Below are positions 15,758-52,815 of a stretch of DNA of 64,000 bases, one piece after another (the first letter of the stretch is position 1; each line of letters starts with the position of its first letter). The notes beneath the pieces are model-generated. The model searched no databases, was not told the origin of the DNA, and saw nothing but the letters and a program-made list of their open reading frames with translations. The position numbers and the translations under genes are program-made. This DNA is from Bugulina stolonifera (taxonomy: Eukaryota > Bryozoa > Gymnolaemata > Cheilostomatida > Bugulidae): positions 6,473,501-6,537,500 of the forward strand of contig OW285190.1 of the NCBI GenBank assembly GCA_935421135.1. Direction: 5' to 3'.

Positions 15758-15839
15758 ATGCCCTTTTATTTGTGTCATCCGTGGACCCAGGCAAACCCTA
15801 CCCCACCAGAGAATGAATATAGCATCAGCCAAGACTCAG
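15758..15839 (+). CDS. ZNF-A coding exon 1 (shortened FWxPW module)
   Basis: ATG to a phase-1 donor (GACTCAG|GTATTT). It encodes 27 residues starting MPFYLCHPWTQANPT, homologous to exon 1 of ZNF-C (MSFNFWRPWTQANTT) but 18 bases shorter and with the FW pair changed to LC. Joining it to exon 2 (acceptor at 17,198 or 17,201) gives a TGA within about ten codons as I read the bases. The exon may therefore be upstream leader now, with translation beginning in exon 2. Confidence 0.6.
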
Positions 15840-17228
15840 GTATTTACAGTCTTATTTGGTAGTGTGGTCATTTCCTCGCTCTTTCTAATGTTAGTGGGTG
15901 TGCAGTTTGTCATTATACATATACAGCACATGTTCATTTATATCGGTTAGAACACTTTGATTCCTGAGCGCGTTCTTATGTGGCAGACCGTGGGGTCCTG
16001 GCCATTTTCTGTACTTTCCATCAAAATTTTAAACACATTAGTCTACGATGGACCTATACAAACTATATATCGAAATGAAGCTTAACACCTGTTAAATTAC
16101 TGACAAAAATCAGACTTGAGCTATCATGCATAGCCATTAGATGACAGTGAGATAGGTAAAACCCATTTTTATCATTCCACGAAAAACTGAAAACTAAAAA
16201 AATATATTTACCAAGTAAGTGCCCTGTTTCCTATCAAAATTTAGTTAACAGCATGCTCAAATACATGGTGTACTTGGATCAGTGTTTGAACCAAGTTCTA
16301 AGCCCTCATTACCAAAAATTTTATCAATCAAGCACCCAGTATCAAACCTACTGAAAGCGTCTGTTTTTACTTCAAACAGCAAGTGGCAGGCCAGAGGATA
16401 TAGTTGTTCCCAACAGCCAATTAACTCATTTGTATTAGCACTAGAAAGCCAGAGATTATGTATCAGCACAAAAAAGCCTGCTCTTTCTAAATATGGCTTT
16501 ATTTCTGTCATAGACTCAATAGTTTTCCTGTCATGAATAAAATACTGCAACTGCCAGTATACCCGTTCTCAGGGCTCAAAGATAATGCAATCATAACATG
16601 AGTTATAGTGGCACAACCCTCCAATAAACTGAGTAGGGGGTTAAGGGTGTAAACACAAGTTTTAGAGCAAATGTATATTCAACAAGTCTTAACTTTGTAA
16701 TCTTTTCATTCTTAAATTCCCAGAAGAGTACATTTTCAGTTTGGAGCTACAAAGTATATTTTGCAAAACATTCAGTATATAAAACAAAATTCTCAATTCC
16801 TGAGAAACTTAGCAGTAAATTCTCAGAGTAAACAAAATTCAAATCCATGCCAGCTCTGTTACATTTTTATTAGCTTCTTTGGTTTGTTTAACATTTAATA
16901 ATTACTAATCAGCAGAAACTCAACCCTAATCATATCACAGACTGATTTACTAGTCTGTGCTAAAAAGGGGAATTTCCTGAATAATCCAACCAGTGTTTAT
17001 ACTGAGGTGGTAGTTTTAGTTCACTCTGCCTCGTATTTCTTTTAAGTCATGTGTAACTATTGTGGGCTGATGTTGATAATATTGTCAAGCTGAGCTTCCA
17101 CGTAGGTACGCACATGTAAGTACTCATGTCTGAGTTGAATATGCTCTATGCAGATAAAGTGTAACTATTACTATACATAATTGTAATTACTGATAGTAGA
17201 CACAAGGAGTGACATAGAACACACTGAG

Positions 17229-18458
17229 ATGGAAACTGTTCAATCACTCATTCAATCAGCTAGTAACCACTCCATTAGCCAGTTATCATGCAGAGGTCAG
17301 TATGTTTATGTCTCTCAATCCAATGGTTTAATACTTATTTTGACAGAACAGTCATACAAACTTACAGGCACATCTACGATGTAGTAGTTCCACGTGCCGA
17401 GAGCCCATTGTTTAGATAAAGTGTAGAATTTGAAATGAATGAAGATGGTGCAGATTTTGCACACTGTGTCGTTTAGTCGTGGCGTTTGAAAAGTATATAT
17501 ATGACTATTTAGTCATTGCAGGATCAGTTGCCTTGTTGCTTTCAGCATCAATTTGATCTGGGTTATTTCATGCTTGATAGAGGCGATTTCAAACAAGTCA
17601 ACAGTAAAGGACATGAAAAAGCAGTCGTATGAGCAGACACCTACCTTTAATAACAGATACAACTATTACCAGTGTGACTTAACCTTTCCATCCTCCTCTG
17701 AACTTGGTGAACACTTGAAAACTTATGAAGGACTAAAAACCTGCCCATCCGATATTCGGTTGCATGAAAGAGAGGATGATGCTATATTATGCATGCAGAA
17801 GAGCACCGGTGCAAGACTGTTCAATTCCGCAGCACAAGTTGAAACAGATACAAATGAGAAAAAATACAAGTGCACAGAGTGTGAGCATAGTTTTACAACT
17901 AGAGGCAGTATGAAAAGGCACATGAGAACTCACAAGAGTGAAAGGTTATTCAAATGTTCACAGTGTGAGTATACTACTATGCAGCGAGTTCAGCTTAATA
18001 AGCACGTCAAAACACACACTAAAGATAAAATGTTTGACTGCACCTACTGTCGCTATAGTTCTACCAAAAGAGGGAATCTTGATACACACATTAGAACACA
18101 TACTGGTGAGAAACCATTCCAGTGTTCATATTGTGCCTATAGTTCTGCCAACAGCGGAGATCTAAAGAAGCATATTAGAACACATACTGGTGAGAGACCA
18201 TTCCAGTGTTCATATTGTGACTCTAACTTTGCTGAAAAAGGAGCACTGGATAGACATATTAAAATACATACTGGTGAGAGACCATTCCGATGTCATTATT
18301 GTGACTTTGCTTCTGCCAGAAAAGGAAACCTTGGTAAACATATTCGGACACACACTGGTGAGAGACCATTTCAGTGTTTGTATTGTGACTACAGCTCTGC
18401 CCAGAAGGGAACTCTTGATACACATACCAGAACACAGCATGGTATTGAGAGACAATAA
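17229..18458 (+). CDS. ZNF-A, C2H2 zinc-finger protein with seven fingers
   Basis: Two exons, 17,229-17,295 (METVQSLIQSAS...) and 17,581-18,458, phase 1 at the junction, 314 residues. After a degenerate finger (YYQCDLTF, lacking Cys1 and the last His) and a variable spacer come seven C2H2 fingers from about residue 120 to the end, joined by HTGEKP/HTGERP linkers. Fingers 1 and 2 (YKCTECEHSF..., FKCSQCEYTT...) have atypical HKSERL and HTKDKM linkers and are the most conserved across paralogues. It is a likely nuclear sequence-specific DNA-binding protein. The start was chosen because exon 1 does not join in frame. Its introns are nearly identical to those of ZNF-C in places. The family is recognised; the target is unknown. 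Confidence 0.85.
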
Positions 18459-19195: not shown

Positions 19196-19201
19196 AATAA
19201 A
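19196..19201 (+). terminator. Poly(A) signal of ZNF-A
   Basis: AATAAA inside the block 'cgtaaaataaa' and 'tcgctcttta-aatactt', which is repeated behind ZNF-B and ZNF-C at the same relative place. The 3'UTR is about 740 bases. Confidence 0.7.
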
Positions 19202-20017: not shown

Positions 20018-20180
20018 TATAAAGCAGATGGTGGAAACAGAAATTCCTAGAATCAATTGGTTAAATCTAGTTTACACTAATACAGTTGTAGAGCTAAAGT
20101 AGAGGTACATTGTATGTCAAACAATATCTACATTCTGTAAACTGTGAAGGTATTTTTGGAGTGGTTTAACTGAAGCACTG
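20018..20180 (+). promoter_or_regulatory. ZNF-B promoter (TATAAAG) and 5'UTR exon
   Basis: TATAAAG at 20,018-20,024 lies about 155 bases before a conserved donor (GCACTG|GTGAGT, exon end 20,180). The acceptor is at 20,478-20,479 ('atcattgtag'). The whole block is closely matched upstream of ZNF-E (44,702-44,864). Confidence 0.6.
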
Positions 20181-20508
20181 GTGAGTTGGTTAGTAAACAC
20201 ACACAATTCTACGGTGCACTGATACAGTAACTGTGTGCTCATATGCTTCTGATGAGTTCTTTGAGTCATCAATATTCTCCAGTGCTAGTGCTGCCATTGA
20301 CCATGATAATCCTGCTTCTACTTGTTGATTAAGTGCTGCTGGCTGTTCTCATGTTATGGGTGGTCAGCTTCGGCACAAGCAAATATCTGCATGAAGCTTT
20401 CTACATGTGTACTGCGTCTACCACATAGTATATATCCAAGTGAGATGAATGTAGATTATTCGTAGTGTGATCATTGTAGCAATGTACATGTATTCACTAG
20501 GCACAAAC

Positions 20509-20608
20509 ATGTCCTCTAGCTTTTGGCGTCCATGGATTCGGACTGACCCGGCCCAGGCGGAGTATAACCACAGCAGCAGAAATTCCATACAAGCCTGTCA
20601 TGATTTAG
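20509..20608 (+). CDS. ZNF-B coding exon 1 (FWxPW module)
   Basis: The exact 100-base coding exon shared by C, D and (before its insertion) E: 33 codons plus one base, starting MSSSFWRPWIRTDPAQ, with donor TTAG|GTATGG. The first exon is intact, but exon 2 (from 22,042) reads into TGA when joined in phase 1. This exon may be leader for a protein starting at 22,081, or it may splice elsewhere. Confidence 0.65.
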
Positions 20609-21753: not shown

Positions 21754-22080
21754 ATATCACACATTATCTTGCATGTGGTTACACACCCATTTACTTCTTG
21801 CAATTATCTTTAGTACTCTAACCAATTATATTTATATTGAGCTGCTACTACCTGTACAATGTATATTATTAGCAATTCACAGTCATATGGCTTGACTCTC
21901 CACATACATGTAGCTGTGCTTTGCTGTGTATAATCATAATGCTAAGGTCTGCTACTAAGAAAGCATGAGTATCCTAAGGTGAACAGACTCTTTAGATATA
22001 GAGTATTATTACTAGCATATACATATGATTATTCAAGATAGACACAAGGAGTGATATTTGACTAAAATAGTAATACTGGG

Positions 22081-23532
22081 ATGGAAACTGTTGAAACACA
22101 CATTGAGGTAGCTAATAGCCACTGCATTAGTCAACCAACATGTGAAGGTAAGTACATGTGTATCTCTCAGCCCAATAGTTTAACTGTTATCTTAATAGTA
22201 CATGTATCACGATACAGACAAAAATGTTTACACCTAGACACTTGTATGTTACATTTACCTCGGCTATGACATACATGTGACTTGTACTTTATCCGTTACC
22301 AACAGAAGTACATTTTTTATGTGCAATGCATAACTTGAAATTATCGCAGACGGTAAAAAAATACACCTCATTGGCTTTTCTATGTTAGAGTTTCAAAAGC
22401 AGATGAATGAAAATGCATTACAAAATCTAGTTACCGTTGCTTTCATCATCAACCTGATCTCGTTGTTGTATGTTAAATAGATGGGAATTCCAACAAACAA
22501 GCGGTAGAAGGAGCTACTACAAAGACACAGTGGCTTATCTCTACATATGAGAACTTGTACAAGAGTGATCAGTTTGACGTCAACATTGCATTCTCTCCTG
22601 TACTTGGTGAACGCATGAGAATGCATGAAGGACTGAAAACATGCAAGTCTGGTCTTGATCTTCAGGAAGGAGAGGATACCTCCGTATGTAGCAAGCAAAC
22701 ACAGACTAGTCAAAAACACTTCAGTGTTACAGCGCAGGTTGAAACAGATACAAATAGGAAAGGATACATGTGCACCAACTGTGAGCATAGTTTTTCAACT
22801 AAAGATAATATGCAAAGACACATGGGAACGCATAAGAATGAAAAGTTAGTCAAATGCACGAAAGTAAATTATACAAGAGTGCAGTTAGCTCAGCTTAACG
22901 GACACATCAACAAACATACTGGTAAGAGACAATTTGAGTGTTCATATTGTGACTACAGCTCGGCCAATAGAGGACATCTTAAGATACATATAAGAACTCA
23001 CACTGGTGAGAGACCATTCCAGTGTTCATATTGTGACTCTAGCTTTGCCCAAAAAATAAATCTTAAGGAACATAGTAGAACACACACAGGTGAGAGACCA
23101 TTCCAATGTTCATATTGTGACTCCGCTTTTGCCCAAAAAGTAAATCTTAAGAAGCATATTAGAACGCACACTGGTGAGAGACCATTCCTATGCTCATATT
23201 GTGACTCTGCGTTTGCCCAAAGAGGAAGTCTTGATAGACATATTAGAACACATACTGGTGAGCGGCCGTTTAAGTGTTCCTATTGTGACTCCGCTTTTGC
23301 CCAAAAAGGAAGTCTTAATGAACATATTAGAACGCACACTGGTGAAAGACCATTCCGATGTCATTATTGTGACTTTACTTCTGCCAGAAAAAGAGACCTT
23401 AGAAAACATATTATTCAGACACACACTGGTGGGCAATCATTTCAGTGTTTGTATTGTGACTACAGCTCTGCCCAGAAGGGGCATCTTGATAGACATACTA
23501 GAAAACAGCATAATATTGAGAAACAATATTAA
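22081..23532 (+). CDS. ZNF-B, C2H2 zinc-finger protein with eight good fingers and one broken
   Basis: Exons 22,081-22,147 (METVETHIEVANSH...) and 22,481-23,532, 372 residues. The N-terminal relic finger is almost erased (YKSDQFDVNIAF). Finger 2 reads KCTKVNYT, so Cys2 is Val and it probably cannot bind zinc. The remaining fingers are canonical, several with the near-identical core CSYCDSAFAQK, joined by HTGERP linkers; finger 8 has an extra residue between the two His (HIIQTH). It is a likely nuclear DNA-binding protein. Exon 1 upstream does not join in frame, hence this start. The coding sequence is uninterrupted. Confidence 0.85.
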
Positions 23533-27418: not shown

Positions 27419-27617
27419 TGTCAAGTCATGATATAATATAATATGGATAGCTTTAACAACACGTCTAGACTCACCAGTAGTATGGATCGAAGTGCCTTGT
27501 GTTCGCTCCTGTATTCTATGCCTCAGTCTCGTATCTCGATCCTATTGGCTAGCGCTTGTCTCTGTATCTAATAGGCGGCTTCGTCATATGCGTTGACCTC
27601 TAGACTATAATCCCACA
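27419..27617 (-). repeat. 3' LTR of the Gypsy element
   Basis: 199 bp. It carries 15 bases near its end (catatgcgttgacct) that are absent in the 5' LTR. A polypurine tract (minus strand GAAGAAAAGGGCA) lies at 27,618-27,630, directly inside. Confidence 0.95.
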
Positions 27618-27961
27618 TGCCCTTTTCTTCGAAGAGCCTCCTCCTTGATTTCTGGTAATCCCTTCTCCAATAGTCTAGATTCCTACAACACTTATCATGT
27701 GTTATGTAACATGCTCTCCTCCTTGGAAGTCTCATGTCTAGATCATAAACAAGCAAATTTTTTATAGCGCTCTACATGCTCCCTTTTTTTTTTTTTCCAC
27801 AAGCTTTATATAAGTACAAGCTATTTTCAACTACTATTGTCTACGAGGCATGAATTACAGTGTCAATGTGTACAGTATATATATAATAAGTTGGACTCAC
27901 CTCGTTCTAGTTCTCTAATACTTTACCTAGTCTTCTAGTAACTTACTCACATGTTCAGGGT

Positions 27962-29018
27962 TTAGTCTACCTCTGGATCTGGACTTCGTCTACCTGGCAT
28001 CTCGGCCGCTGGTGTGCTATCACCCTTCGGACTCTCAGTCGTTCTAGTACCTGAAAGCCCTAAACTAGTATTTCTAGCTACCTCCGAGTAGAGGGGCCCA
28101 TGAAAAGCAACAATCTGAGACTCTGCGCCTTCAGACTTTACTTCCATACCCACACTGACTCGTTCACTAGAGCTCTGGTTTACTTGTATACTAGATTCTA
28201 CCGGAGTCACAGACTCCCCCTCTCCACCTGACGCCTCCATACCTACCATAGAGGTGGAAGCCACTGACAGCGGTGGTGCCACCACGGGACCAGCCGAGGT
28301 ACCTGTCGAGATCTTAGACCTCTTGCTGATAAAGTTAGCCCTTGCGAGCTCTAGCTGTTGAATAGCTTCTCTCATGGCCTCTCCTCCTTCATACTCGACC
28401 TTTAGGGCCTCTCTCTCTCTCTCTCTCGAGCTCCATGCGTTCTCTGGCATGCCTTCTCTCCATTTCTTGTTGTCTATCTGCCAATACTTCCATCCTAGAA
28501 TCAAAAACAGAAGCAGAGAGAAACTCGGTAGATTTGACCGTGTCTAGAAAACTGGATACCTCACCTACAACTGTGCGCTTCCCTGGAACTCTAGCGCTCT
28601 TACTGGGAGGGGCAGGTGTCTCCTCCTCCACTCGAGCTCTCTTGGTTGCTATAAAATCTTTACCACCATACGGGCAATCTGCTGTATCGTGATCTCCTCC
28701 TGTTTTTGCACACCAGGTACAAACTTTCTTTGGACAGATGGCTACCCAATGGCCTTTATCTCCACATTTGTGGCAAACATTACCAGGGCAATCACGTGCT
28801 GAATGGTCACGTAAGCATCCACAAATAAGGCATTTCATATTACCTGGTTTACCATAGATTTTTCTACTTCTACCTGACCTGATTTCTGGTGGGACTCCAC
28901 TGTCTCCATCCTCCTTGCTTGCACTCTCGGTCATGTCTGCTCTAGCTCTCCTCCTTCTCCTTCTTCCCTCTACCACCTGCCACGTTCCTTCCTCTCCACT
29001 GCTCCCTCCGCTTGGCAT
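27962..29018 (-). pseudogene. Gypsy ORF3: zinc-knuckle and coiled-coil protein, frameshifted
   Basis: Downstream of pol on the element strand. The first part (29,018-28,389 frame) is basic and has three CCHC-type knuckles: C-x2-C-x5-H-x4-C, C-x2-C-x4-H-x4-C (CHKCGDKGHWVAIC) and C-x2-C-x6-H-x4-C. An R/E-rich helix follows (MERRHARERMELERE). The frame then moves at a (CT)n tract (about 28,411-28,427), and the second part (28,504-27,962 frame) continues the helix (EALKVEYEGGEAMREAIQQL) and ends in a Ser/Pro-rich tail. Together they cover about 350 codons. The knuckles suggest nucleic-acid binding like a nucleocapsid. There is no signal peptide or membrane segment, so it is not an envelope. Its function is unknown. 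Confidence 0.75.
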
Positions 29019-29071
29019 TGTTAATGTTGAATGATTTGAATGATCTGAGTAGTCTGAATATTCTACAACAG

Positions 29072-29503
29072 TTAGTAATATGACATGTCCTGCTTGCTTG
29101 GTCGCTTGCTAACCCTTCCTGATCTAGTTACATACTCCTTGGACCTGGTTTTTCCAGACACAGAGGCGTTGGGGTTATCAGCTTGACACTCAGTTGCCGT
29201 GCCTTCATTTGGCTTGGCGGCCTCTCTAGTGTCCTGTATAATCTGGCTCTCTATAACCGTTTGTTCGGTCGACTGGGGTTCACTAAGATCATTAATGGTG
29301 GTATTACTAGCAGCCTTATTACTAGTGGTGTTAGTCTTAGCAGCATTATCATTAGAAGCATTGTCACTAGCAGTTGTTAAGGGTATTGAAGGCTCATCCA
29401 AGGGTATATGGTCTACCTCAGATAAGTCTTCCGTTTCTTCACCCCGAGACTCACCTAGCTGGAGTTCCGGATTAGAGGGTGATGGTAAAACATCACTCCC
29501 CAC
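29072..29503 (-). pseudogene. Gypsy pol C-terminal tail, out of frame
   Basis: An open frame of 143 codons in a different frame from pol: acidic, Ser/Thr/Asn-rich, ending with YVTRSGRVSKRPSKQD. R-S-G-R-x-x-K-P endings are typical of Gypsy integrase C-termini. The overlap with the preceding frame at 29,455-29,503 places a single frameshift there. It is therefore read as the displaced end of pol, not as an independent gene. Confidence 0.6.
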
Positions 29504-29841
29504 CCTGTCTCCGACCTGTATAACAGATACAAGTGTTTATGGTTGCGCCTAAGTTCTCTGGAATTCACTCTAACCCAAAAACTATCGGGGTATGTATCCT
29601 GTCTAAAGACAATACCTTCTCTACCTATATCACTGGGAGCTTTAACCCACACTTTGTCCCCGATTTTCAAATCCGGTAACCTACTTGCTCTATGTTTCCT
29701 ATCCCATTTGGCATTGGATTTACTTTTGTTATTCAACTCGATCTCTTCAAATTCGCTGTAATCAACTGGATCACCATGAGGGCACCCCAAGGGGGTTTCT
29801 ATGGGGCGTCCAAACAAGAGTTCTGCAGGTGAAAACCCTGA
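29455..29841 (-). pseudogene. Gypsy integrase C-terminal part, after an amber codon
   Basis: Same frame as pol, directly following the TAG at 29,844-29,842. It contains ELLFGRPIETPLG and the chromatin/nucleic-acid binding part LKIGDKVWVKAP with downstream RRNHKHLYLLYR, as expected for the integrase C-terminal domain. The TAG falls inside the conserved 'YRATPL-x-SGFSPAELLFGR' stretch, so it is a nonsense mutation and not the natural end. Confidence 0.75.
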
Positions 29842-32385
29842 CTATAACGGAGTAGCTCGATATGCTAACAGAGCCTCTGCCTTGTTTTCTGAGCTGAGCC
29901 ACAACCTTTTAACAATCCCTACGGCTCGTTCCGCGAGACCGTTCGATTGCGGATACCTAGGGCTACTCGTGGCGTGAGCAAATCCCCAACTATCCGCAAA
30001 GGACCGGAACTCCACGCAAGCAAAACAGCTACCATTATCGCTCCTAAGTTTCTTAAGAGTTCCCAGTCGTGAAAATATAGATTTCAACTCACTAATAACA
30101 TTGCTCGCTGTTTGCGAGTTCAGGAATGCAGTTTCTATCCATTTAGAATAGTAATCAATCACAATCAGATATAACTTTCCCTCAAACATAAATACATCAG
30201 TACCAAGTTCTACCCATGGTGCTGTAGGTAAGGTTATACCCACAGTAGGTTGGTGTTTTATGGCACTATTCTTTATACAAGTTTCACACGTAGAAATGTA
30301 GTTGTTAATATCACTACTAACACTGGGCCACCAAAATAATTGTCTCGCTCTTCTCTGGCATTTGACTATGCCCTGGTGACCTACATGGCACCTTTCTAAA
30401 TAAACTTGTCGTAATACTTTTGGAACATATAACCGTGAGTTACATAAAATCAACCCTCCATATTCGGTCAAACTATCACGGCAGCTATAGAGCCGTCGTA
30501 ATTCCCCATGTAGCGATGTACCATTTCTCGGCCATCCGTTACGCATATATAATATACAGCTACTAGCAATTTCATCTATTTTGATTGCATCTAGTAACTC
30601 TTGTTCTCTGACACTGCCTAAAAGCTTCTCTTCTACGATACTCGCTATGTAGCGTTCCACTAGAGCGCAATTATAAATAGCTTCATCAGTAATCCCTTCT
30701 GTGCAAGGCCTACTTAATGCATTGGCTAAGTACATTTCTCTACCTGGAGTATGAAATATTCTGTATTCAAATCTCATTAGCCTTAGCTTAAATCTCTGTA
30801 CCCTCAAAGGTAAATGATACAAATCTTTTTCCCCTAGGAGTGAGACTAATGGCTTATGATCTGTCTCAATCTCAAACTGTCTCCCCATTAAATAGAAATC
30901 AAATTTCTCGCATGCCCATGTTATAGCTAAAGATTCTTTCTCGATCATCGCATACCTTTTTTCCGCTTCTGTCATTTTGCGAGAAGCATACTCTACTGGT
31001 TGCCAGTCTCCCCTGTCAGTGTTTTGCAACAACACCGCTCCTATCGCTGATTTACTGGCATCTGCTGAAACCCTATGATTTTTATTCAAGTCAAAAGAAC
31101 ACAATACTGGTGTGCTTGACAGCTCTTGTTTTATATTATTAAAAGAGTTCTGCTGATCAATACCCCAATACCACGGACTTTTTCCTCCTATCACATCGTA
31201 AATGGGAACACTCAATTCAGCGAGCTTTTTACTAAATTTACCTAGGTAGTTAACTACTCCCATAAACCTGCGTGCCTCCTTTTTGTTATTAGGAGGTAAC
31301 ATCTCTGAAATAGCTTTAACTTTTTCTGGGTCTGGCTTAATGCCTTCTCCACTGACTACGTGTCCTAGAAATTTTACTGACGAGCATCCAAACTCGCACT
31401 TGCTCTTTTTTAGGGTTACTCCCGCACTTTGAATTCTACTCAACACTTTTTTTAATCTGGACCAATGTTGGTTGGCGTCTTTACCATAGACTAGGACATC
31501 GTCCATCAAACATACTACGCCGTCTAAGCCATGAAGAATTTTTTCCATGGCTCTCTGATAGAACTCAGGTGCAGAGCTAATTCCAAATGGCATTCTCTTA
31601 AAGCAAAACCTACCCCAAGGTGAAATAAAGGTAGTGAGCAGTTTGCACTTCTCATCCAATTTTACTTGCCAAAATCCGCTGTTTGCATCCAATTGGGAAA
31701 ATATTTTTCCTTCAGATAAACTAGACAACATATCACTAACCCTGGGAAGAGGATAATTTTCCCTTCTAACTCCCTTGTTTAATCTAGTTAAATCTACACA
31801 CATTCTAATTGCTCCATTTGGTTTAGGGGCAATGGTTAAGCCTGAACACCATTCTGTTGGTTGTTCCACCGGTTCAATTACCCCCATCTCTAACATTTTA
31901 TCTATTTCAGCCTTTGCTTTTTCTCTAAGACCTGCTGCTATTACCCTAGGTCTCGTTAGATGGTAGGGTTCTACATCCTTTTTCAATTTGACTGAAAATA
32001 TCCCAGGCAAAACTCCTAGTCCTTTGAAAAGCTCAGGAAACTTCACAAAGGGATCAAAAGCTTTGGCACACACCGATTCTACTATAGCTAACAAGTTAAG
32101 CTTTCTAATTTCTGAAATACCTAGTAGGTTTCTGTTAGCGCCCTTGACTACTGATATGCAAGTTGAGATAGATTTAAACCTATTCTTGATCTCTACATTC
32201 GCTTCTCCTAGGACTGACAACTTATGACCTCCAGCCCCCATCAAAATTTTAAACTGGGGCTGTAATTTCATACCAATATCCCTAGAAGAGTTATCTGTAA
32301 GGACTGTTACCTCGGCGCCCGTATCTAGTGTAAATCTTACATTATGACCATTTACTTTTAAGATAGCTCTATATTCCCCGCCTAG
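29842..32385 (-). CDS. Gypsy pol: protease, reverse transcriptase, RNase H, integrase (truncated)
   Basis: It follows gag in the same frame after UGA (32,388-32,386), so it would be made by stop-codon readthrough. Protease: D-T-G-A at about 32,325-32,314. In the frame counted from the Met at 32,271, RT has DLTRLNKGVR (~160), SQLDANSGFWQ (~193), and catalytic L-M-D-D at 255-258. RNase H has D404-A-S-K and TDHKPL (~470). Integrase has an H-x2-H (629, 632) and C-x2-C (662, 665) zinc site and D692, D745, E781 (D,D35E spacing). It ends early at TAG 29,844-29,842. The catalytic residues are all present. It acts in reverse transcription and integration of the element. Confidence 0.95.
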   Translation of the reverse strand, partial: LGGEYRAILKVNGHNVRFTLDTGAEVTVLTDNSSRDIGMKLQPQFKILMGAGGHKLSVLGEANVEIKNRFKSISTCISVVKGANRNLLGISEIRKLNLLAIVESVCAKAFDPFVKFPELFKGLGVLPGIFSVKLKKDVEPYHLTRPRVIAAGLREKAKAEIDKMLEMGVIEPVEQPTEWCSGLTIAPKPNGAIRMCVDLTRLNKGVRRENYPLPRVSDMLSSLSEGKIFSQLDANSGFWQVKLDEKCKLLTTFISPWGRFCFKRMPFGISSAPEFYQRAMEKILHGLDGVVCLMDDVLVYGKDANQHWSRLKKVLSRIQSAGVTLKKSKCEFGCSSVKFLGHVVSGEGIKPDPEKVKAISEMLPPNNKKEARRFMGVVNYLGKFSKKLAELSVPIYDVIGGKSPWYWGIDQQNSFNNIKQELSSTPVLCSFDLNKNHRVSADASKSAIGAVLLQNTDRGDWQPVEYASRKMTEAEKRYAMIEKESLAITWACEKFDFYLMGRQFEIETDHKPLVSLLGEKDLYHLPLRVQRFKLRLMRFEYRIFHTPGREMYLANALSRPCTEGITDEAIYNCALVERYIASIVEEKLLGSVREQELLDAIKIDEIASSCILYMRNGWPRNGTSLHGELRRLYSCRDSLTEYGGLILCNSRLYVPKVLRQVYLERCHVGHQGIVKCQRRARQLFWWPSVSSDINNYISTCETCIKNSAIKHQPTVGITLPTAPWVELGTDVFMFEGKLYLIVIDYYSKWIETAFLNSQTASNVISELKSIFSRLGTLKKLRSDNGSCFACVEFRSFADSWGFAHATSSPRYPQSNGLAERAVGIVKRLWLSSENKAEALLAYRATPL

Positions 32386-33555
32386 TCATTCATCACTATC
32401 ACTAGAACTGTGTTCCTTAACATGTCTCACGAATTTTACTCTTCGACTAGGACTTCTACTCTCCTCTCGAAGGTATTCTTCCCGGTGAGGAGTAGACCTT
32501 CTTTTATTTCTCTCTCTTGGACTCCTACTCTGTCTCCGATAGTAAGACCTACCATTGTTTTCAGGACTACTGCTATAATTCCTCGGCCAAGGCTTGGGTT
32601 CCGTCCTACAATCTCTAGCCTGATGGCCTTTCCCCTTGCATTTAAAGCAAATAATCCTAGGGCAAAACCTCGCAACATGGTTTTTCTCGTTGCATTCATA
32701 ACATCTCCCCTGGTCCTTCCTATCTGGAGTAATACTACGCCTGTAACTATTTCTAGAGTTAGACCTAGACCTATGTCTATTCCTCCTGTCATTATTTCTA
32801 CTATCTCTATACTCCCTAGGGCTTCTTTCTACCCTATTTATTCTTTTAGCGTAAGCACTACTCTCTACTTTAACTTCCCCCACTGGTTCAGTTTTAATGG
32901 TCAAAGAACTCAAGTCACTATTTAGCTTTGTCACCGACTCCTGTGCAGAAGATCGTGACTTCATAATAGTCTTTAGTTTATCCCAAGTCAAATCTTCCCT
33001 AGCTATAAGCTCTCTACACAAGTTATGATCTCTCAAACCTGTAACTGCTAGTACCAGAGCTAATTCCTTACGAGCCGTTTGTAAGGGTACTTTAGCGGCT
33101 TCAATTTCAGCATTAAAAAATTCTAAACTTCTACTTAAACGTTCGACCCTGTTTAAATAATCCCTAGGATCTTCACTAGCACACTGTTGCACTTTCACAA
33201 AACTTTGGGTTCTAACATACAAACTATCTTCTCTCTTATAGTGGTTAACCAAAACCTCCAAAGCTTCATCATACGTAGTATTGACCCCTTCTAACTCCAA
33301 ACCTGTGGACAGTAATGTCTCTCTACCCTCCGAGCCAATAGATTTCAATAATGCCAATAATTTACCTTCATCAGTGAATTTTGGAACCAAAGTTTCAACA
33401 CCATGTTCATCTGTAACTTTATTTTTACCCATTTCAAAGCTTTTCATTCTAATACATATTTTAAATTCTGTGAGCCATCTGTTCCATGACCCTGAAACAT
33501 CTTGTGGATCAATGCGAAGCTCAGGAAATCCCGAATAACTAAACCCAGTCGCCAT
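32386..33555 (-). CDS. Gypsy gag, capsid/nucleocapsid protein
   Basis: 389 residues from ATG 33,555 (a TTG further upstream is not needed) to UGA 32,388-32,386. The N-terminal two thirds is the helical retrotransposon Gag region (SGSWNRWLTEFKICIRMK, DPRDYLNRVERL...). Then comes an Arg/Ser-rich stretch and two zinc knuckles (CYECNEKNHVARFC and CFKCKGKGHQARDC), and a basic, Ser-rich end. It packages the element's RNA in cytoplasmic particles. The stop is followed by CUA-G, a known leaky context, and the frame continues into pol. Confidence 0.95.
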   Translation of the reverse strand: MATGFSYSGFPELRIDPQDVSGSWNRWLTEFKICIRMKSFEMGKNKVTDEHGVETLVPKFTDEGKLLALLKSIGSEGRETLLSTGLELEGVNTTYDEALEVLVNHYKREDSLYVRTQSFVKVQQCASEDPRDYLNRVERLSRSLEFFNAEIEAAKVPLQTARKELALVLAVTGLRDHNLCRELIAREDLTWDKLKTIMKSRSSAQESVTKLNSDLSSLTIKTEPVGEVKVESSAYAKRINRVERSPREYRDSRNNDRRNRHRSRSNSRNSYRRSITPDRKDQGRCYECNEKNHVARFCPRIICFKCKGKGHQARDCRTEPKPWPRNYSSSPENNGRSYYRRQSRSPRERNKRRSTPHREEYLREESRSPSRRVKFVRHVKEHSSSDSDE

Positions 33556-33832
33556 CGTTTGCAATTTATTTTAATTTTAAAGTATCTCCTTGTTTTCTCT
33601 CTTTTAATAAATAAATAAGTTAGTATAAGTATACAACCTCACTCCTCTTCTCTCTCCTCTATAATGATAATCTCTCTGAAACTCACTGTTCCCAATAACT
33701 ATTAATAATAACAATAAATAATGAAAATCTCTCTCTCTGTCCTCTCCTCTCTCTCCTCCTCTGTTGATCGCCTCTCTCCTCGAAAAAGTCTATCCAGTAG
33801 AACAGTATATCTATAACTTGAAAACACAGCTA

Positions 33833-33849
33833 CCCCACCCGTGGTACCA
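33833..33849 (-). other. Primer-binding site of the Gypsy element
   Basis: On the minus strand TGGTACCACGGGTGGGG directly follows the 5' LTR with no spacer. The leading TGG pairs with a tRNA CCA end. I do not assign the tRNA. Confidence 0.8.
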
Positions 33850-34033
33850 TGTCAAGTCAAGATATAATATAATATGGATAGCTTTAACAACACGTCTAGA
33901 CTCACCAGTAGTATGAATCGAAGTGCCTTGTGTTCGCTCCTGTATTCTATGCCTCAGTCTCGTATCTCGACCCTATTGGCTAGCGCTTGTCTCTGTATCC
34001 AATAGGCGGCTTCGTCTAGACTATAATCCCACA
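33850..34033 (-). repeat. 5' LTR of the Gypsy element
   Basis: 184 bp, partner of 27,419-27,617. The untranslated leader between it and gag (33,556-33,832) is GA-rich on the element strand, with long CT runs on the plus strand. Confidence 0.95.
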
Positions 34034-35571: not shown

Positions 35572-38335
35572 ATGTCATTTAACTTTTGGCGCCCATGGAC
35601 CCAGGCAAACACTACCCCACCAGAGTATGAATATAAAATCTGCAGTTCGATATGTGCAAGTCAAGCTACAGGTATTTTTCTGTCTTATTTTGTCGTTTAT
35701 TCATTCCTTTGGCGTTTATAATTGTAGTGGATGTGCATTTGGCCATTATATTGTATTGGTAAATGTAACTCTATACTCAGCTTCTCGAACTACATGTGCA
35801 TTGCATTTTTTATAAATAATTATTCTATAGTTCATGTATAGTGACTTGCCTATGTAGTAACCTGTCTCTTATATACTTGTTGTATGCATTACTGAGCATA
35901 TATACCCTTTTTAGATCTATGTAAAGAGGGCCGACCTCTCAGAATTGGCTGTAATTGATTTTGCACATGAATCTCACGATTTTCACCACTTTTTGTTACA
36001 CCCGACATGCTTTGGGTTGGCCTCGAGCTTCCGACCACCATCTTGTGGCGCGATTTCCGGTCGACACTACATTTACATTTATTGGGTTTTCTAAAAGTTT
36101 ACAGGTAACATTATGTTGTTAAAAGTAACTTGTTGACCACAAATAAATAAATATATATTATATACAACTCATGGGAAAGAATAAATAAATAGACAAAGAG
36201 AACAAAAAAAGGAGGCCTTTTACCTGAATTTTTGACCGGGAGTACTAGTAGTCTATAAAGCGCACTGTTTTTATTGTTATTGTCTCAGTTGATGCTTGAA
36301 TCTCAATAACGACACTTTGATACTACATAAGCAGAGTCTTCTCTCGTAGTATTGGTTGTTCCATTTGGTAAAGTCCTGACCTTGCTTCCTGAGCTTCCTA
36401 CTAAGACTGAACATACTTTTTCTCAGTATAGCAATATAGCATTGACTCGGGACCACATGGGTCGTCTTGAGTAGTCATTAAACTACTAGTGCTTGTGGAT
36501 CTTTCATGTAATGAACAGACCAAGCACCACTCATAGGTCTTTCACTTTGGCAAGAGGTCATGTTATGATGACACAGACGCTCAACCCCAAAAAACCATTA
36601 CAGTATTACATACACATATATGCACATGCATATGTGCGTGTTCATTTATTTGTTAGAGAAAATAATGCCTCTCTTGTATGCAATCATAACAAGATTCTAC
36701 ATGACTTGTGAAACATTGTGTAGGGACAAGTGAAGACAGGTTTTAAAGTAGATGTATCTGCACTGTATACTCAGCAAAACTAGTCTCAACATTGTCACTT
36801 TTCAACTCTTAAACTTCCAGAAAAGTACATTTTGTCAGTTTTAAGTTACAAAGTATATTTTGCAAAACTTTCAGTATATAAAACCATAATCTTAAATTGA
36901 AATTGTTGTCCTTCTGAGAAATTTACCAGTAGATTCTTACAGCAAACAAAATTTAATTTCTTGCAAGCTCTATTATGTTTTGCTAGTTTTTTTTTATTTA
37001 CTCATTATTAAATTTACTTATCAGTATCATATCTCAGATTGATTTACTAGTTTGTGCTAAAAGGGGGAAGTTCCTGAATAATCTAACCAATGTTTATACT
37101 GAGATGGTAGTTTTAGTTCACTCTGCCTCATATTTCTTTTACATGTAAGTCATGTGTAACTATTGTGGGCTGATGTTGATAATATTGTCAAGCTGAGCTT
37201 CCACGTAGGTACGCACATGTAAGTACTCATGTCTGAGTTGAAGATGCTCTATGCAGATAAAGTGTAACTATTACTAGAAGAGGTTAGACATGTAGTTACT
37301 GCTAACAATTTGTAGATACAATGAGGAACCGTGAATACCCTGAGATGGAAACTGTTCAGATGGAAAATGTTGTCTCAACTAGTAATCACCACATTTGCCA
37401 GCCATCATGTGAAGGTCAGTAAATTTATACCTCTCACTCCAATTAATGAGGATGGTTGAAAGTTGCATAATTTTTCGTTTAATTGTAGCATTTGAAAAAG
37501 AACGTAGAAAAATTACTATAGTCATTGCAAGATCGGTTGCCTTGTTGCTTTCAGCATCAATCCAATCTGGTTTATTCCATGTTTGATAGAGGCGATTTCA
37601 TGCAAGTCAGCAGTAAAGGACATGAAAAAGCTGTCGTATGAGGAGACACCTACCTTTAATGACAGATACAACTATTACCGGTGTGACTTAACCTTTCCAT
37701 TATCCTCTGAACTTGGTGAACACTTGAAAACTCATGAAAGATTAAAAACCTGCCCATCTGATATTCGGTTGCAAGAAAGAGAGGATAATACTATATTAAG
37801 CATGCAGAAAAGCACCGGTACAAGACTGTTCAATTCTGCAGCACAGACTCAAACAAATACAAATGAGAAAGGATACAAGTGCACAGAGTGTGAGCATAGT
37901 TTCACAAGTAGAGGCAGTATGAAAAGACACATGAGAACTCACAAGAGTGAAAGGTTATTCAAATGTTCACACTGTGAGTATACTACTGTGCAGCGAGCAC
38001 AGCTTAATAAGCACGTCAAAACACACACTAAGGATAAAGTGTTTGCTTGCACCTACTGTCGCTATAGCTCTACCAACAGAGGAAATTTTGAGAACCATAT
38101 AAGGACACACACAGGTGAGAAACCATTCCAGTGTTCATATTGTGACTACAGTTTTGCCCGAAAAGGACATCTCAGAAGGCATCTAAGAACACACACTGGT
38201 GAGAAACCATTCCAGTGTGCATATTGTGACTCTGCGTTTGCCCGGAAAGAAAGTCTTAATATACATATAAGGACACACACATGTGAAAGACTATTCCAGT
38301 GTTTATATTATGACTCAAGGTTTGCCCAGAAATGA
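35572..38335 (+). CDS. ZNF-C, C2H2 zinc-finger protein, five fingers, premature stop
   Basis: Exons 35,572-35,671 (100 bases, MSFNFWRPWTQANTTPP), 37,316-37,414 and 37,590-38,335 join in phase 1 throughout and give 314 residues. This is the only member whose full N-terminal module still reads through. It encodes FWRPW, then EYPEMETVQ, a relic finger (NYYRCDLTF...GEHLKTH) and five C2H2 fingers. Finger 6 has lost Cys2 (CLYYD) and is cut by TGA at 38,333-38,335, where paralogues have GGA. The same frame stays open beyond it for about 19 codons. It is a likely nuclear DNA-binding protein with a shortened array. An SL1 LTR sits in intron 1. Confidence 0.85.
35840..36602 (+). mobile_element. SL1 solo LTR in ZNF-C intron 1
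   Basis: The right end is AACCATTACA. GTAT flanks both ends (35,836-35,839 and 36,603-36,606). It contains the 'gagggccgacctctcagaat' block, TATAAAG near 36,255 and 'ttgtctcagt', in sense orientation to ZNF-C. The left end is diverged from other copies, so the start rests mainly on the duplication. Confidence 0.7.
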
Positions 38336-40812: not shown

Positions 40813-42084
40813 ATGACCTCCAGCTTCTGGCATCCATGGACCCAGGAAGACCTCACTGCAGAAGATTGTGACCATGAGAGTAGGAATTTTATACATAATT
40901 GTCGCATTAAAGGTATGTGCAGTTTTATTTGGTAATGACTTGTATTGTTTCTTTGCTGCCTATAATATTAGTGTACATGCTTCATGTCAGCATATACTGT
41001 ACCGTCTGTCAATGATTACAGATATAATACATGCATTGTAGAATCACAATACATGTAGTTCTATATTATGTTAACTGGTATGACGGGGCAGACAACTACA
41101 CCCAATTGCAGCATCTTTGAGTTGGTTTAAATCTTATTTTGACAGAATTGTCATACAAACTAAGCGATGCATACTTACATCTGGATGGATGGATGTGTGT
41201 TTTGTTTACATCATATACAATGGAACTTTTACACACACATGTATGTACATGTATGGAGCGTGCACAACCATACCGGCCCTAACCAATTTTAATTTTGCAG
41301 CACACATTCAAACAAATACAAATAAGAAAGGATACAAGTGTACAGAGTGTGAGCATAGTTTCACAACTAGAGGCAGTATGAAAAGACACATGAGAACTCA
41401 CAAGAGTGAAAGGTTATTCAAATGTTCACAGTGTGAGTATACTACTATGCAGCGAGCTCAGCTAAATAAGCATGTCAAAACACACACTAAGGATAAAATG
41501 TTTGCCTGCACCTATTGTCACTATAGTTCTACCAAAAGAGGGAATCTTGATACACACATTAGAACACATACTGGTGAGCGACCATTCCAGTGTTCCTATT
41601 GTGACTCTAGCTTTGCCAGAAAAGGAGATCTTGATAGACATGTTAGAACACATACTGGTGAGAGACTATTCCAGTGTTTATATTGTGACTATAGTTCTGC
41701 CAACAGCGGAGATCTAAAGAAGCATATTAGAACACATACTGGTGAGCGACCATTTAAATGTTCATATATTGTAAATCTGCCTTTGCCCAAAAAGGAAGTC
41801 TTAATAGACATAGTAGAACACATACTGGTGAGCGACCATTCCAGTGTTCGTATTGCGACTCAAGCTTTGCCAGAAAAGGAGATCTTGATATACATATTAG
41901 AACACATACTGGTGAAAGACCATTCCAGTGTTCCTATTGTGATTCTAGCTTTGTTCAAAAAGGAAGTCTTGACCAACATATTCGAACACATACTGGTGTG
42001 AGACCATTTAAATGTACAACATGTGAACATAGTTTCACAAGAAAAATTCACCTTACTGCACACATCCGGAGACATACTGGCTAA
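40813..42084 (+). pseudogene. ZNF-D, C2H2 zinc-finger gene with 2-bp frameshift
   Basis: Exon 1 40,813-40,912 (100 bases, MTSSFWHPWTQEDLTAE, donor AAAG|GTATGT) joins in phase 1 to 41,301-42,084 (acceptor ttttgcag). No exon 2 is visible, and the 5' third of the finger exon is gone: the acceptor now lies in what is coding FNSAAQ in ZNF-A and ZNF-C. Nine fingers are encoded. In finger 6 an additional AT (TCATATATTG at about 41,763) shifts the frame, and the array continues in the new frame to TAA 42,082-42,084. Exon lengths sum to 3n+2, confirming a 2-bp gain. Unless it is a sequencing error, only five fingers can be made. Confidence 0.8.
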
Positions 42085-45206: not shown

Positions 45207-46614
45207 ATGTCCTCTAGCTTTTGGCGTCCATGGATTTGGACTGACCCAGCCCAGGCAGAGTATGACCATCATACTTGCCAAGTGTCCCGGGTTTCTCGGG
45301 ACACCCCCGGGATTTGAAAATTGTCCCTACACTGTCCCAATGTCCTGATTTATACCCCGGGAATTAGAAAATTGCTGCTACAAAAAATTTTTTATCATTT
45401 CCTTTGGATTTTCCAAAACATTGACTGAAAAAGGGTTGAGCGTCGCAAATCCTGGGGAATTTTTGCTAAATATAATATGCTACACACTGTTTATTTTTGA
45501 AGTAGTTCGATGTCTAGTGACCGTCGTGTCTATGCCAATTGCCACTAGTGATAGCCCAAACTCCGACTAATTCCTGAGCTATATTGGCAGTGTACCAAAG
45601 CCTCCCCAACAGTGAATAGCTATTTTATATAAACGCTCTAATGTCAATGACGACCACGGTGCAAATGAAAATTCACTCATTGATATTATAATTATTATTA
45701 TTTGCATGTACAAATAATGTTTCCATTATTTGTCTATTGGATGTTAATTTAGCTGTTAAGCCAAACAATTCTCACAGTACAGACAAGCAAAAGACTCGGC
45801 AATTTTCAAGTTTAAAATCGATGGGTCAAATTCATTTATTTTGTTTCTAAAAGTAAATTAGGTTTTTAATGTCAATATTATCATTATGCCTTCTGCACCC
45901 TCTAGTATTACTGATGGTGGTACCAATGACATAGCCAGGCACACCATGACCCAAAAGCTAATCAAAGCTGTTGTCTGAAAGCTGTCACGTCATCTAAAAG
46001 CTTAGAAGATTTGTTTATTCTCAATGATTCTGAAGTTCAAAAGACAGGCTTACATTATGACTATAGTTTTTAATATAATAATTATAAACTTAACTTATGA
46101 AAATACTGAATTATTATTATTATTATTATAATTCAGTGTTTTCATAAATAGAGCTATTTATATGTTTATAATTTAATAAAATGAAACAAAAATTTGGTTT
46201 CTAATAAATTTTTATGTTGTAGCAAGTTTTATAGGTCTTCTTTAGATAATCCAACCTAAAGCACTCTTTGCAATTTCATTCCTATTCTAATTCTTCCCAC
46301 CATTTTAAAACCATTCCAATATGCACGTAATATGAACATATTTTTGACCACTAGAGCAGCATACAAATATGAGAGAAACTGTCCTAACTACTGTCATTTT
46401 AGTGGCTCACAAAAAATATTTTGAATGCGGGAGGGCGCTCCTCTGCCCCTCCCACACCCTTTCTGGCAGCCCACTACGCGGGCTGGCATGGCCTGCGGCC
46501 ATGTCGTCCGTCCTCCCACTGGTCCGCGCATGTGTCCAGATTTTTTACCCAGGTTACTTGGCAAGTATGATGACCATAGCAGCAGAAATTCTATAGAAGC
46601 ATGTCATGATTCAG
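45207..46614 (+). pseudogene. ZNF-E coding exon 1 split by a transposon
   Basis: MSSSFWRPWIWTDPAQ... is intact for 63 bases (45,207-45,269). It then runs into the element and a stop about 17 codons on. The remaining 37 bases of the exon lie at 46,578-46,614, ending CAG|GTATAG. 63 + 37 equals the 100-base exon of ZNF-B, C and D, so the break is entirely due to the insertion. Confidence 0.9.
45270..46569. mobile_element. hAT-like non-autonomous DNA transposon, 1300 bp
   Basis: The 14-bp terminal inverted repeats CATACTTGCCAAGT are flanked by the 8-bp duplication ATGACCAT (45,262-45,269 and 46,570-46,577). Eight-base duplications and this kind of terminus point to the hAT superfamily. The subterminal region is rich in CCCGGG hairpins, and a GC-rich stretch lies at 46,430-46,540. 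No transposase frame is present. Confidence 0.85.
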
Positions 46615-47491
46615 GTATAGCCAGTCTTATGTCGAGTTGTATCATATTCAAGCTGTTACATTGTATGTTTATTCATAATTAATTTTTACGAAATAGAATC
46701 ATTTGTTTGTCTGAAACTACGGATATGGATGTGCATTGTACATGTACTTTATGCAATTGTAATGTTCGTAGCTCTCCACGTAGAACTGTATATTACATGT
46801 ATATTACATGTATATTATAGAGGCAAGCTGCTACCCCAAGTTGCGCATGCATTAGGCGTAGCTTCATGACCTAATGAACCCTGTAGATAAGTCTAAAGGA
46901 TTATAAATACACGTTTCACAGTTATAGTTGTATATTTATAAATTCACAACATTGTCACCTTTTTATTCTCAATGTCTTAGTATAGTGTATCTTACATCTT
47001 CAGTTTTAATATGCAATGTAACTGAGCTACTGAGTATATTTTGAGGAAAATTCTTGCATACATTTGCATCAGTTGAAAATAGTATCAACCTGAAAATTTC
47101 ACCACTAAATTCTGACACCTGCAGTACCTAGAACAGTAACATAAGTTGAACTCTGACATGTATTTATTAGGTTTGTTAGGTTTCAAGGTTGGGTTGGTTG
47201 ACAGATTTAACCCAATGGCAATCACACATGTAATCATATTATTACCCGCTGATGTACTGATTTGTGTTAAAAAAGGATTCTCTTCAGTACTGTAGCTAAG
47301 AGTTATACTGAGCTGTCAGCAATTTGGGACTCTGACCCATGTAATTGCATACTTAATTTAACTACACTTTGCTGCTGTAAATCATTCTTCCAAGATACTT
47401 TCTACATGTACTAGGGATGAATTATAATCTTCCTAGAGAGGTAACAAAGTGTTCCTACTATACATGTAATATATAATTGATGATAGATACA

Positions 47492-48685
47492 ATGAGTAAT
47501 ATTGGATATGGTGAGATGGGAAATGTTCAAACACACATTGGATCAGCTAGTAGCCACTACATTAGCCAGCCATCATCGGAAGGTAAGTATATTCAAGCAT
47601 CTCCACCCAAGGTATAACATCTCTCTTGATACAATGGTCATGGGGAGCAATAAACTTTATACTTTATACACATTTTGAAATTACTGTAATTAAGATAGTC
47701 ATGCATTTTTCTATGATGGAATTTCAAAAATCGACAAAGAAAAATTCATCGCTAGGTCATATTCTTAATTGCTTTCAGCATCAATATGATCCCAGCAGTT
47801 ATGTTTATTGACCTAATACATGTAGATTGGAATTCAGGCAAAAAAGCTGTAGAGGAAGTTAACACACAGTCATATGAGGAGACACCTACTTTTGGGAACC
47901 TGCACACTTGTGATCAGCATGACTCAAAATTTTCATTTTTCTCTAAACGTGGTGAACACATGAGAACTCATGGAGGACTGAAGACCACCCAGTCTGATTT
48001 GAGGTTTCATGAAAGAGAAGATACTACTGTATGTAGCAGTCTACAAATATCCAATATTCCAGAAAAGGATCATGCAAATACAAATGAAAAATTCTACAAG
48101 TGTACAGAGTGCGAGCATAGTTTTAAAACTAAAAGGAATATGAAAAAACACAAGAGAGCTCATAAGTGTGGAAGCTCATTCAAAACCTCAATATGTAACT
48201 TTAATAGCGTGTGGGAGGCTCAGCTTAGCAGGCAAATCAGAGGACAAACTAGAGAAAGACACTTCTGTTGTACATACTGTGACTATAGCTCTGCTCAAAG
48301 ACAAAATCTTGAGAGACATATTAGAACACATACTGGTGAGCGACCATTTAAATGTACATACTGTGACTCTAGCTTTGTCCAAAAAGGACATCTTGATATA
48401 CATATTAGAACACATACTGGTGAGAGACCATTTAAGTGTTCATACTGTGACTCTAGCTTTGCTCAAAAAGGACGTCTTAATATACATATTAGAACACATA
48501 CTGGTGAGCGACCATTTAAATGTTCATATTGTGACTCTGCTTTTACCAGAAAAGAAAGTCTGGATATACATATTATTAAAACACATACTGGTGAGAGCCC
48601 ATTCAAATGTAAAAGATGTCCACAGAGTTTTACAAGAAAACGCTATCTCGCTGCACATATCCTGACACATACCGGTGAAGAATAG
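47492..48685 (+). CDS. ZNF-E, C2H2 zinc-finger protein (exons 2-3)
   Basis: Exon 2 is 47,487-47,582 and exon 3 47,826-48,685, phase 1; an ATG at 47,492 would give 316 residues without the FWxPW exon. It has YGEMGNVQ, a relic finger with Cys2 changed to His (TCDQHDSKF...HMRTH), a good first finger (YKCTECEHSF), and a second finger that is lost (FKTSICNFNS...QIRGQ, lacking Cys1 and both His). Five canonical fingers with HTGERP linkers follow, ending with FKCKRCPQSF. The frame is clean to TAG. It is a likely nuclear DNA-binding protein; the intact exon 1 can no longer be included because of the hAT insertion. Confidence 0.8.
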
Positions 48686-51555: not shown

Positions 51556-51579
51556 TCCCGGTGGTTATCTAATAGCAGA

Positions 51580-52815
51580 ATGGCATTTAATTTCTGGAGC
51601 CCTTGGATTCAGAATGAGCCTACTGCCACAGAGCATGTCCGCAATAGTAAAGATTCTTTAGATTCATATCATCAGACAGAAGGTAGGTAAAGTTTACTAT
51701 TTAGTGGTAGATTTGATGGGCATGGCCTCAACACCTTGGTGTAACCCAAAATCGGAGAAGGAAATTTGAAAAATGAAGTTTTTAGGTAAATTTTTAAGTA
51801 GGGTGGAGACTTTCAAGATTCTCCCTTCTATTCATGCCGCCAGAGTAATATGAGAAAAATGTAACATAGGCTCGTTGTTATTCACCTGACCTTTTCATCA
51901 AACAGAGACAATTGTTAAACTAATGTTATTGTAAGGGATAGTCGAAAAGAAGAAATTAATTAACAGGAGCCACTAGCATGACAAAGGTTATAGTATTCTT
52001 AGGACCTGGTTGTTTGCATATTATAAATACTTTGGATCTGCATTGTATACAATTATTATTCTTTGAAAGTCAGCGTGGCAGTACATGTTGCATTCTATGC
52101 ACACTTCCAATGGGTACAATCATGTACGTCCCATTGGGAATTGTACATAGAATAATGCTAGGTTGTACAATATGTACATGCACATGTACAGTGTAGCTGA
52201 TGGCTGGAGCAGCTCTGCCTTGATGCAAATTCTTGTATTACTTGACACAGTTCAGTTGTGTATTGCTCTGGCACGGTGCATTCCTGACAGACTTCGACAT
52301 AATCCGGCTTATTCATGTCAAAGTCTTTCTAGACCTACATGACATTTGAAAGTTTACTATAATTATAAGGTACTCCTTCCTGTAGGACTCTTCACTCTCT
52401 TGTGAGCTTCGAATGCAGTAATTTCTCTAACTATGCATAAATTGAGTCTTAATACTGTTTGCTGCATCAATCACAAAAATTTACCTGCTGGATCTGCCCT
52501 AGTCCAGCCTTAGAGTTTCCCAAGACTGCTATTTATAATAAGGGCCTACGATTTGAATGCATAGTCACTGTCATAGTCTAGCTTTCATCTTGACAATATC
52601 TTGATAAAGGCACGGTAGATCTGTTTGTACATTGATTTTTGAGCTCACCCGAGGCTGCAAAATCGCATGTCTTAAATACGGACTGGATCATGTTTTCTTC
52701 AAAGACTTGCTTTTTAAATTTTCAGACAACGGTGTTGTATATGCTGAAATGCAACCAGTTCAATCTAATATTGAATCAGAAAGCAATGGCTACAACAACC
52801 CCCTGTCGTCTCCAG
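51580..52815 (+). CDS. ZNF-F, N-terminal module only (no fingers in view)
   Basis: Exon 1 51,580-51,682 (MAFNFWSPWIQNEPTATEHV, donor GAAG|GTAGGT) and exon 2 52,726-52,815 (DNGVVYAEMQPVQSNIES, donor CCAG|GTCAGT) share phase 1 and the FWxPW and YxEMxxVQ motifs with the other members. Both exons are clean. No finger exon follows before the window end; the next possible exon (53,013) has a different phase. It is either a gene fragment, a gene whose last exon lies beyond the window, or a protein that keeps the module without DNA-binding fingers. Confidence 0.65.

Follow-up and report, generated by a model that had tools for sequence, protein, structure and literature searches.

Tandem C2H2 zinc-finger genes of the bryozoan Bugulina stolonifera carry an N-terminal exon with a candidate Groucho-binding motif

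We analyzed a 64,000-nucleotide stretch of the 235-Mb genome of the bryozoan Bugulina stolonifera (GenBank assembly GCA_935421135.1, contig OW285190.1), referred to here as the window (C4:6473501-6537500, with contigs labeled C2, C3, C4, and C8). It contains a section of a tandem C2H2 zinc-finger gene family that is young and has partly decayed; six of the genes (G1 to G6) begin with a short coding exon. An initial annotation, made from the letters of the window, had described an undescribed N-terminal module of two exons, with F-W-x-P-W in exon 1 and Y-x-E-M-x-x-V-Q in exon 2, placed ahead of the fingers as KRAB, SCAN, or ZAD is elsewhere; the predicted gene structures agree with that placement. 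In G2, G3, and G5, exon 1 has as its core the exact tetrapeptide WRPW (i.e., the motif by which HES repressors bind Groucho), and exons with the same motif precede finger arrays on two other chromosomes.

The six copies of exon 1 start at positions 15758, 20509, 35572, 40813, 45207, and 51580 of the window, all on the + strand. By predicted splice sites, their lengths are 82, 100, 100, 100, and 103 bases, plus 100 bases for G5 without its insertion, and all are 1 mod 3. F-W-x-P-W, annotated for all six genes, is present in five (G1 reads LCHPW), and the length given as usually exactly 100 bases applies to three copies as they stand, or four counting G5. G1 consists of the coding part of exon 1 (15758..15839; 82 bases; MPFYLCHPW...), exon 2 (17200..17295; 96 bases; phase 1-1; HTEMETVQ), and a finger exon (17581..18458) with 7 matched C2H2 fingers. 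In G2, exon 1 (20509..20608; 100 bases; MSSSFWRPW...) is followed by a relic of exon 2 with a frameshift and a stop (approximate limits, 22040..22150) and by a finger exon (22481..23532; 8 matched fingers) that exon 1 could join in frame without exon 2. G3 has exon 1 at 35572..35671 (100 bases; MSFNFWRPW...), exon 2 at 37316..37414 (99 bases; YPEMETVQ), and a finger exon at 37590..38335 that ends in a stop after 5 matched fingers. G4 comprises exon 1 (40813..40912; 100 bases; MTSSFWHPW...) and a finger exon (41301..42001) with 5 matched fingers, after which the open frame departs from the finger frame; no exon 2 was found for it. Exon 1 of G5 (45207..46614; MSSSFWRPW...) is interrupted by the insertion, and exon 2 (47487..47582; 96 bases; YGEMGNVQ) and a finger exon that starts with DWNS (47826..48685; 6 matched fingers) follow. 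Finally, G6 has exon 1 (51580..51682; 103 bases; MAFNFWSPW...) and exon 2 (52726..52815; 90 bases; YAEMQPVQ), and no finger exon was found among the same-strand open frames of at least 45 codons in the next 5 kb. A C2H2 exon thus lies behind five of the six exon-1 copies, as annotated, and the tandem arrangement of genes with C2H2 arrays is a feature of lineage-specific poly-C2H2 families.

The four intact copies of exon 2 (96, 99, 96, and 90 bases) are all 0 mod 3 with predicted phase-1 ends, and the finger exon opens in phase 1 by the predicted joins. With every exon 1 at 1 mod 3 and every intact exon 2 at 0 mod 3, the predicted joins stay in frame. Because exon 2 has phase-1 ends and the finger exon is in phase 1, skipping or loss of exon 2 would leave the frame intact. 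G2 and G4 are cases of such loss; in G4, a predicted phase-1 acceptor just before the fingers (TTTTGCAG/CA, identified by eye; the slash marks the splice site) could take exon 1 directly. The annotated Y-x-E-M-x-x-V-Q exon is therefore intact in G1 (with H for Y), G3, G5, and G6 only. A 5' untranslated region (5'UTR) exon and promoter common to all six genes had also been proposed, and here four genes (G1, G2, G3, and G5) have in common a 5' block with the donor CTG/GTRAGT. In G1, this putative promoter/5'UTR exon spans 14761..15133 on the + strand (best-conserved part, 14964-15049) and is 76% identical to 34974-35355 of G3, 79% identical over 87 nt to 20117-20202 of G2, and 80% identical over 40 nt to 44844-44883 of G5.

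We assessed exon assignments with profiles scored over 46,522 peptides (six frames of the window and three loci, with the reversed window as a control). Exon 1 of G6 scored 37.9 bits with a profile built without G6, compared with 7.5 bits for the best nonmember and 7.9 bits for the best peptide of the reversed window. Exon 2 of G6 scored 5.8 bits, below the best nonmember (11.1) and the reversed control (11.9), and its assignment rests on core motif, position, and phase. Genome-wide, the exact pattern M3xFWxPW occurred at 8 sites, 5 of them in the window (control, 1). The exact pattern YxEMxxVQ occurred at 25 sites, 3 of them in the window, compared with 29 in the control, so the exon-2 core alone is at chance level. 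At locus L029 on C3 (1480-1578), two occurrences of YREMATVQ, 54 bases from each other, fall in an apparent tandem repeat; the likeness to the exon-2 motif is coincidental.

Protein searches of the genome with the exon-1 and exon-2 peptides gave matches only at C4:6.489-6.671 Mb (7/7 and 11/11). The genome was searched with single proteins and degenerate patterns, and both protein searches missed exon 1 of G4 and G6; their reach is thus limited, and further diverged copies elsewhere are possible. Three more genes with both exons and the linker (G7, G8, and G9) lie approximately 128 to 145 kb past G6, of which G7 is damaged in both exons, the first by a frameshift and the second by a stop. Within the reach of these searches, the two-exon form is confined to nine genes in approximately 180 kb of one chromosome.

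Exon 2 of G1 was 94% identical to that of G8 (90/96) and 70% identical to that of G3 (67/96), while the adjoining intron 1 of G1 was 92 to 95% identical to that of G3. The stretch that matches G8, approximately 175 kb off, consists of exon 2 and its immediate flanks (17186-17341). Since exon 2 resembles G8 and the adjoining intron resembles G3, an exon-sized tract was probably exchanged between the paralogues G1 and G8 (i.e., gene conversion). For exon 1 of the C4 family, 25 of the 26 defined pairs had a ratio of nonsynonymous to synonymous substitution rates (dN/dS) below 1, and for exon 2 the ratio ranged from 0.22 to 1.32 with wide intervals (12 defined of 15 pairs). Selection is weaker in this family than on the C8 exons described below.

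Among the 40 matched fingers, the DNA-contact positions -1, 2, 3, and 6, together with position 5, were the most variable. The proportion of nonsynonymous differences (pN) was 0.47 at DNA-contact positions versus 0.38 elsewhere; the proportion of synonymous differences (pS) was 0.53 and 0.54, respectively, so that nonsynonymous change at the contacts does not exceed synonymous change.

Transposons had been annotated within and among the genes of the cluster, and two elements bear this out. A long terminal repeat (LTR)-type element lies between G2 and G3 on the - strand (27419..34016), ending on both sides in direct repeats that are 98% identical over at least 167 nt and carrying gag/pol-like open frames, from which its family was read. 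The insertion in exon 1 of G5 (45270-46569; 1,300 bases), which we take to be hAT-like, has terminal inverted repeats and is flanked by an 8-base target duplication (45262-45269 and 46570-46577). Beside the LTR-type element, a 170-base unit stands twice in tandem (26721-27060; copies 94% identical). At the left of the window, two open frames of 180 and 160 codons on the - strand (7055-8054) are possible exons of an unrelated gene.

A profile of exon 1 (G6 included) run on 53 other loci gave KAFKPWRPWISEE at 18.3 bits and KEFKPWRPWVSEE at 8.8 bits (next, 6.3). Both the former, clear match and the latter, weaker one precede fingers of a C8 cluster. Pattern and protein searches located ten exons of the F-K-x-W-R-P-W type on C8 (nine with WRPW) and two on C2. 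The pattern FxPWxPW (63 sites; control, 1), dominated by a few recurring repeat-like sequences, served for locating these exons and not for counting. Eleven of the exons (9 on C8 and 2 on C2) were read, two in loci of that scan and nine in further loci; the tenth C8 exon, at 3665518, comes from the pattern match alone. Ten of the 11 FK[PLVA]WRPW-type exons read have WRPW and one has WQPW; one WRPW copy opens with YKL and not FKx. All 11 have a length of 0 mod 3 with phase-1 ends, and 10 are open (one has an internal stop). Each of the ten C8 exons lies approximately 1.0 to 3.3 kb ahead of a same-strand finger match, and both C2 exons also precede fingers. One C8 finger group (approximately 3693.4 kb), and perhaps another at 3711.8-3712.8 kb, had no such exon among the pattern and protein matches. 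Overall, exact WRPW precedes arrays in 14 exons (9 on C8, 2 on C2, and 3 on C4), and WQPW does so in one.

To count motif sites genome-wide, we used the pattern FxxW[R/S]PW, which was composed after the C8 exons were known. Of its 19 sites, 7 lay outside the three clusters, equal to the 7 of the control, and the 12 inside them comprised 11 WRPW and the WSPW of G6. From the span of the clusters, 0.02 of the 19 sites would be expected within them; because copies in tandem depend on one another, they are fairly counted as three clusters. Pooled over all pairs of the eight C8 copies that are open, pN was 0.037 and pS 0.252 at the WRPW codons, compared with 0.326 and 0.521, respectively, for the remainder of the exon. 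Judged by these differences, WRPW is much more constrained than the rest of the C8 exon. Across the C8 and C2 rows, the position ahead of the first W is variable (P, L, V, or A), whereas K, W, P, and W are kept in 10/10 copies and R in 9/10. The finger exon opens in phase 1 with AG/ATTGGAATTC (DWNS) in one C8 gene and in G5, G8, and G9; a second C8 gene, G2, and G7 differ from this start by one change. Because this start is common to C4 and C8 genes, the two clusters look homologous, i.e., tied by descent.

These observations suggest a function for exon 1. We consider it fairly probable that the genes encode lineage-specific C2H2 repressors that recruit Groucho via an N-terminal linear motif. 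The family in the window would be one member of a broader group of finger clusters (C2, C4, and C8), in which a short, probably unstructured WRPW exon is joined to the finger exon through phase-1 introns. The fingers would bind DNA, making the proteins sequence-specific repressors, and WRPW would recruit Groucho/TLE through the WD40 domain of Groucho. In the family of the window, an extra phase-1-1 exon (YxEMxxVQ) would have been added, and G1, G4, and G6 to G9 would have drifted off exact WRPW.

The Groucho co-repressor is widespread in animals, and WQPW, YRPW, and FRPW are known variants of WRPW. A Groucho-type exon is present in the B. stolonifera genome (TLE_N, 34.4 bits versus the Pfam cut-off of 32; model positions 1-25 of 118). 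This match and a Hairy_orange match mark the genome as that of an animal, Orange domains having been described in Metazoa only, according to part of one report (PMC3396596). Excerpts of two reports describe WRPW as the Groucho/TLE-binding repression motif of HES proteins (PMC7341146, PMC9890238), and part of another describes an annelid Hes protein with WQPW (PMC4172395). The titles and abstract openings returned by our literature searches contained no earlier report of WRPW-bearing poly-zinc-finger clusters.

Several results weigh against this reading. Exact WRPW is present in only three of the nine copies of the C4 family, the other cores being WHPW, CHPW, WSPW, WRLW (G7, FWRLW), RRLW (G8, FRRLW), and RHLW (G9, FRHLW). 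The exon-1 dN/dS interval lies wholly below 1 in only 7 of 28 pairs of this family. FWRPW/FWSPW occurs at 14 sites genome-wide, 4 in the window and 10 elsewhere (control, 10), and FWRPW alone was dropped as evidence, being at control level outside the window. A motif of the W[RKHS]P[WY] or [FY][RK]P[WY] type was found in only 2 of 24 loci around other finger arrays, which extend 1.5 kb to each side; both are on C8, and the exon of one further C8 gene falls beyond its locus. G1 and G3 begin their finger exons differently, and the DWNS start was found neither in the C8 locus L063 nor in L100 on C2. WRPW lies before the fingers here and at the C terminus in HES proteins, and the sole Hairy/Orange match found in the genome (L090) has an open frame that ends without WRPW, so that the classical WRPW-Groucho partner of this animal was not seen. 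Moreover, the Groucho-like motif of Znf703 (FKPY) is dispensable for repression according to part of one report (PMC6547707).

A reading of the same exons in which nothing is recruited must also be considered, namely, that the N terminus is a disordered passive leader without a partner, which persists in a decaying tandem family through recent shared ancestry. The damage to exon 2 of G2, exon 1 of G5, and G7, together with the missing exon 2 of G4 and the missing fingers of G6, would fit such decay, as would the drift of the WRPW-position motif in C4 and the range and wide intervals of the exon-2 dN/dS. However, undamaged copies keep exon lengths that preserve the frame, G1 and G8 align in their exons and not in their introns, and WRPW is almost fixed in C8 (pN as given above). 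We regard this explanation as unlikely, though the strongest of the alternatives.

The initial annotation had taken the two exons for an effector domain, and they could together form a new folded domain akin to KRAB or ZAD with a partner other than Groucho. Their position before the fingers, their symmetric phases, and the lack of a named family in the N termini tried favor this. With Pfam (E up to 10), three N termini gave no KRAB, ZAD, or SCAN (the same search gave finger families for G8, a match of 0.15 to TGF_beta, below the cut-off, for G3, and none for G6). No NCBIfam family was found in two N termini and no matching Protein Data Bank (PDB) chain for one. A search of Rfam gave no match. 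Among 5.8 billion proteins, neither residues 1-190 of G1 (41 candidates; E up to 1) nor residues 1-100 of a C8 protein (39 candidates; E up to 10) had a match, in a search that sees only relatives with exact 5-residue words in common and is thus of limited sensitivity. The whole G9 protein, used as a control, had zinc-finger proteins of many animals among the 120 matches listed (7,885/7,936 scored candidates), which indicates that animals are present in the database. Nevertheless, the full module was found only in the nine C4 genes, its short exons abound in S, N, Q, and T, exon 2 is losable with the frame intact (G2 and G4), and it is the tetrapeptide exon, and not the two-exon module, that recurs on other chromosomes. 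We demoted the folded-domain reading after WRPW was found before fingers on those chromosomes and now hold it improbable. With WRPW in three genes of the window and in 11 exons before arrays on two other chromosomes, a short linear motif seems to describe the exon-1 module better than a folded domain does. The module is undescribed insofar as the N termini tried match no Pfam, NCBIfam, or PDB entry, but its exon-1 core is a named motif in three genes; on the whole, the observation in the initial annotation is partly confirmed and its interpretation partly supported.

Least probable is a reading in which the conserved block in the exon is a DNA element (TGGCGYCCATGG; in C8, its core is ATGGCG) and the peptide is incidental. 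In its favor, all nine C8 copies read have A as the last base of the codon before W while the residue varies, and P is CCA in all 11 C8 and C2 copies. Against it, the codon before TGG is CCT or CCC in C2 and TTT or TTC in C4 (hence the ATG core is not common to the clusters), the arginine codon varies synonymously (CGT or CGC), and the reading frame is intact in 10 of 11 copies.

If the genes do encode Groucho-recruiting repressors, as we favor, they can be compared with known systems. To our knowledge, Huckebein, Brinker, and Znf703 do not form tandem-expanded poly-finger clusters. As the genes studied here would, these proteins combine a Groucho-like motif (FRPW in Huckebein and FKPY in Brinker and Znf703) with a DNA-binding repressor outside the HES family, as parts of two reports indicate (PMC6547707, PMC3698143). 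In their presumed partner, the genes resemble HES and Huckebein. HES/Hairy proteins share the WRPW tetrapeptide and Groucho/TLE as the expected partner but are of the bHLH-Orange type with a C-terminal WRPW, whereas C2H2 fingers stand behind WRPW here. In layout, the genes come closest to the KRAB-, ZAD-, and FiNZ-ZNF families, which likewise have tandem C2H2 arrays with variable DNA-contact residues behind a short conserved N-terminal module, FiNZ-ZNF being a parallel case in fish (in the excerpt seen of PMC10547256). In contrast to these families, the core here is a four-residue linear motif, and far fewer genes were found.

More tentatively, the clusters might be this animal lineage's own counterpart of the KRAB-ZNF system of land vertebrates, i.e., fast-changing tandem arrays on at least three chromosomes that act with Groucho via a WRPW exon to silence transposons or other fast-changing targets. 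We rate this extension as possible and less probable than Groucho recruitment itself. The initial annotation had inferred that the cluster answers transposons; insertions do occur in the cluster, but an insertion is itself no evidence that the fingers target transposons. Poly-zinc-finger families pair fast-changing fingers with a different N-terminal tag in each animal group (e.g., KRAB, ZAD, and FiNZ). If the proposal is true, a four-residue Groucho tag would show how little suffices to found such a system, and the system would be tied to a widespread animal co-repressor through one peptide with one known partner.

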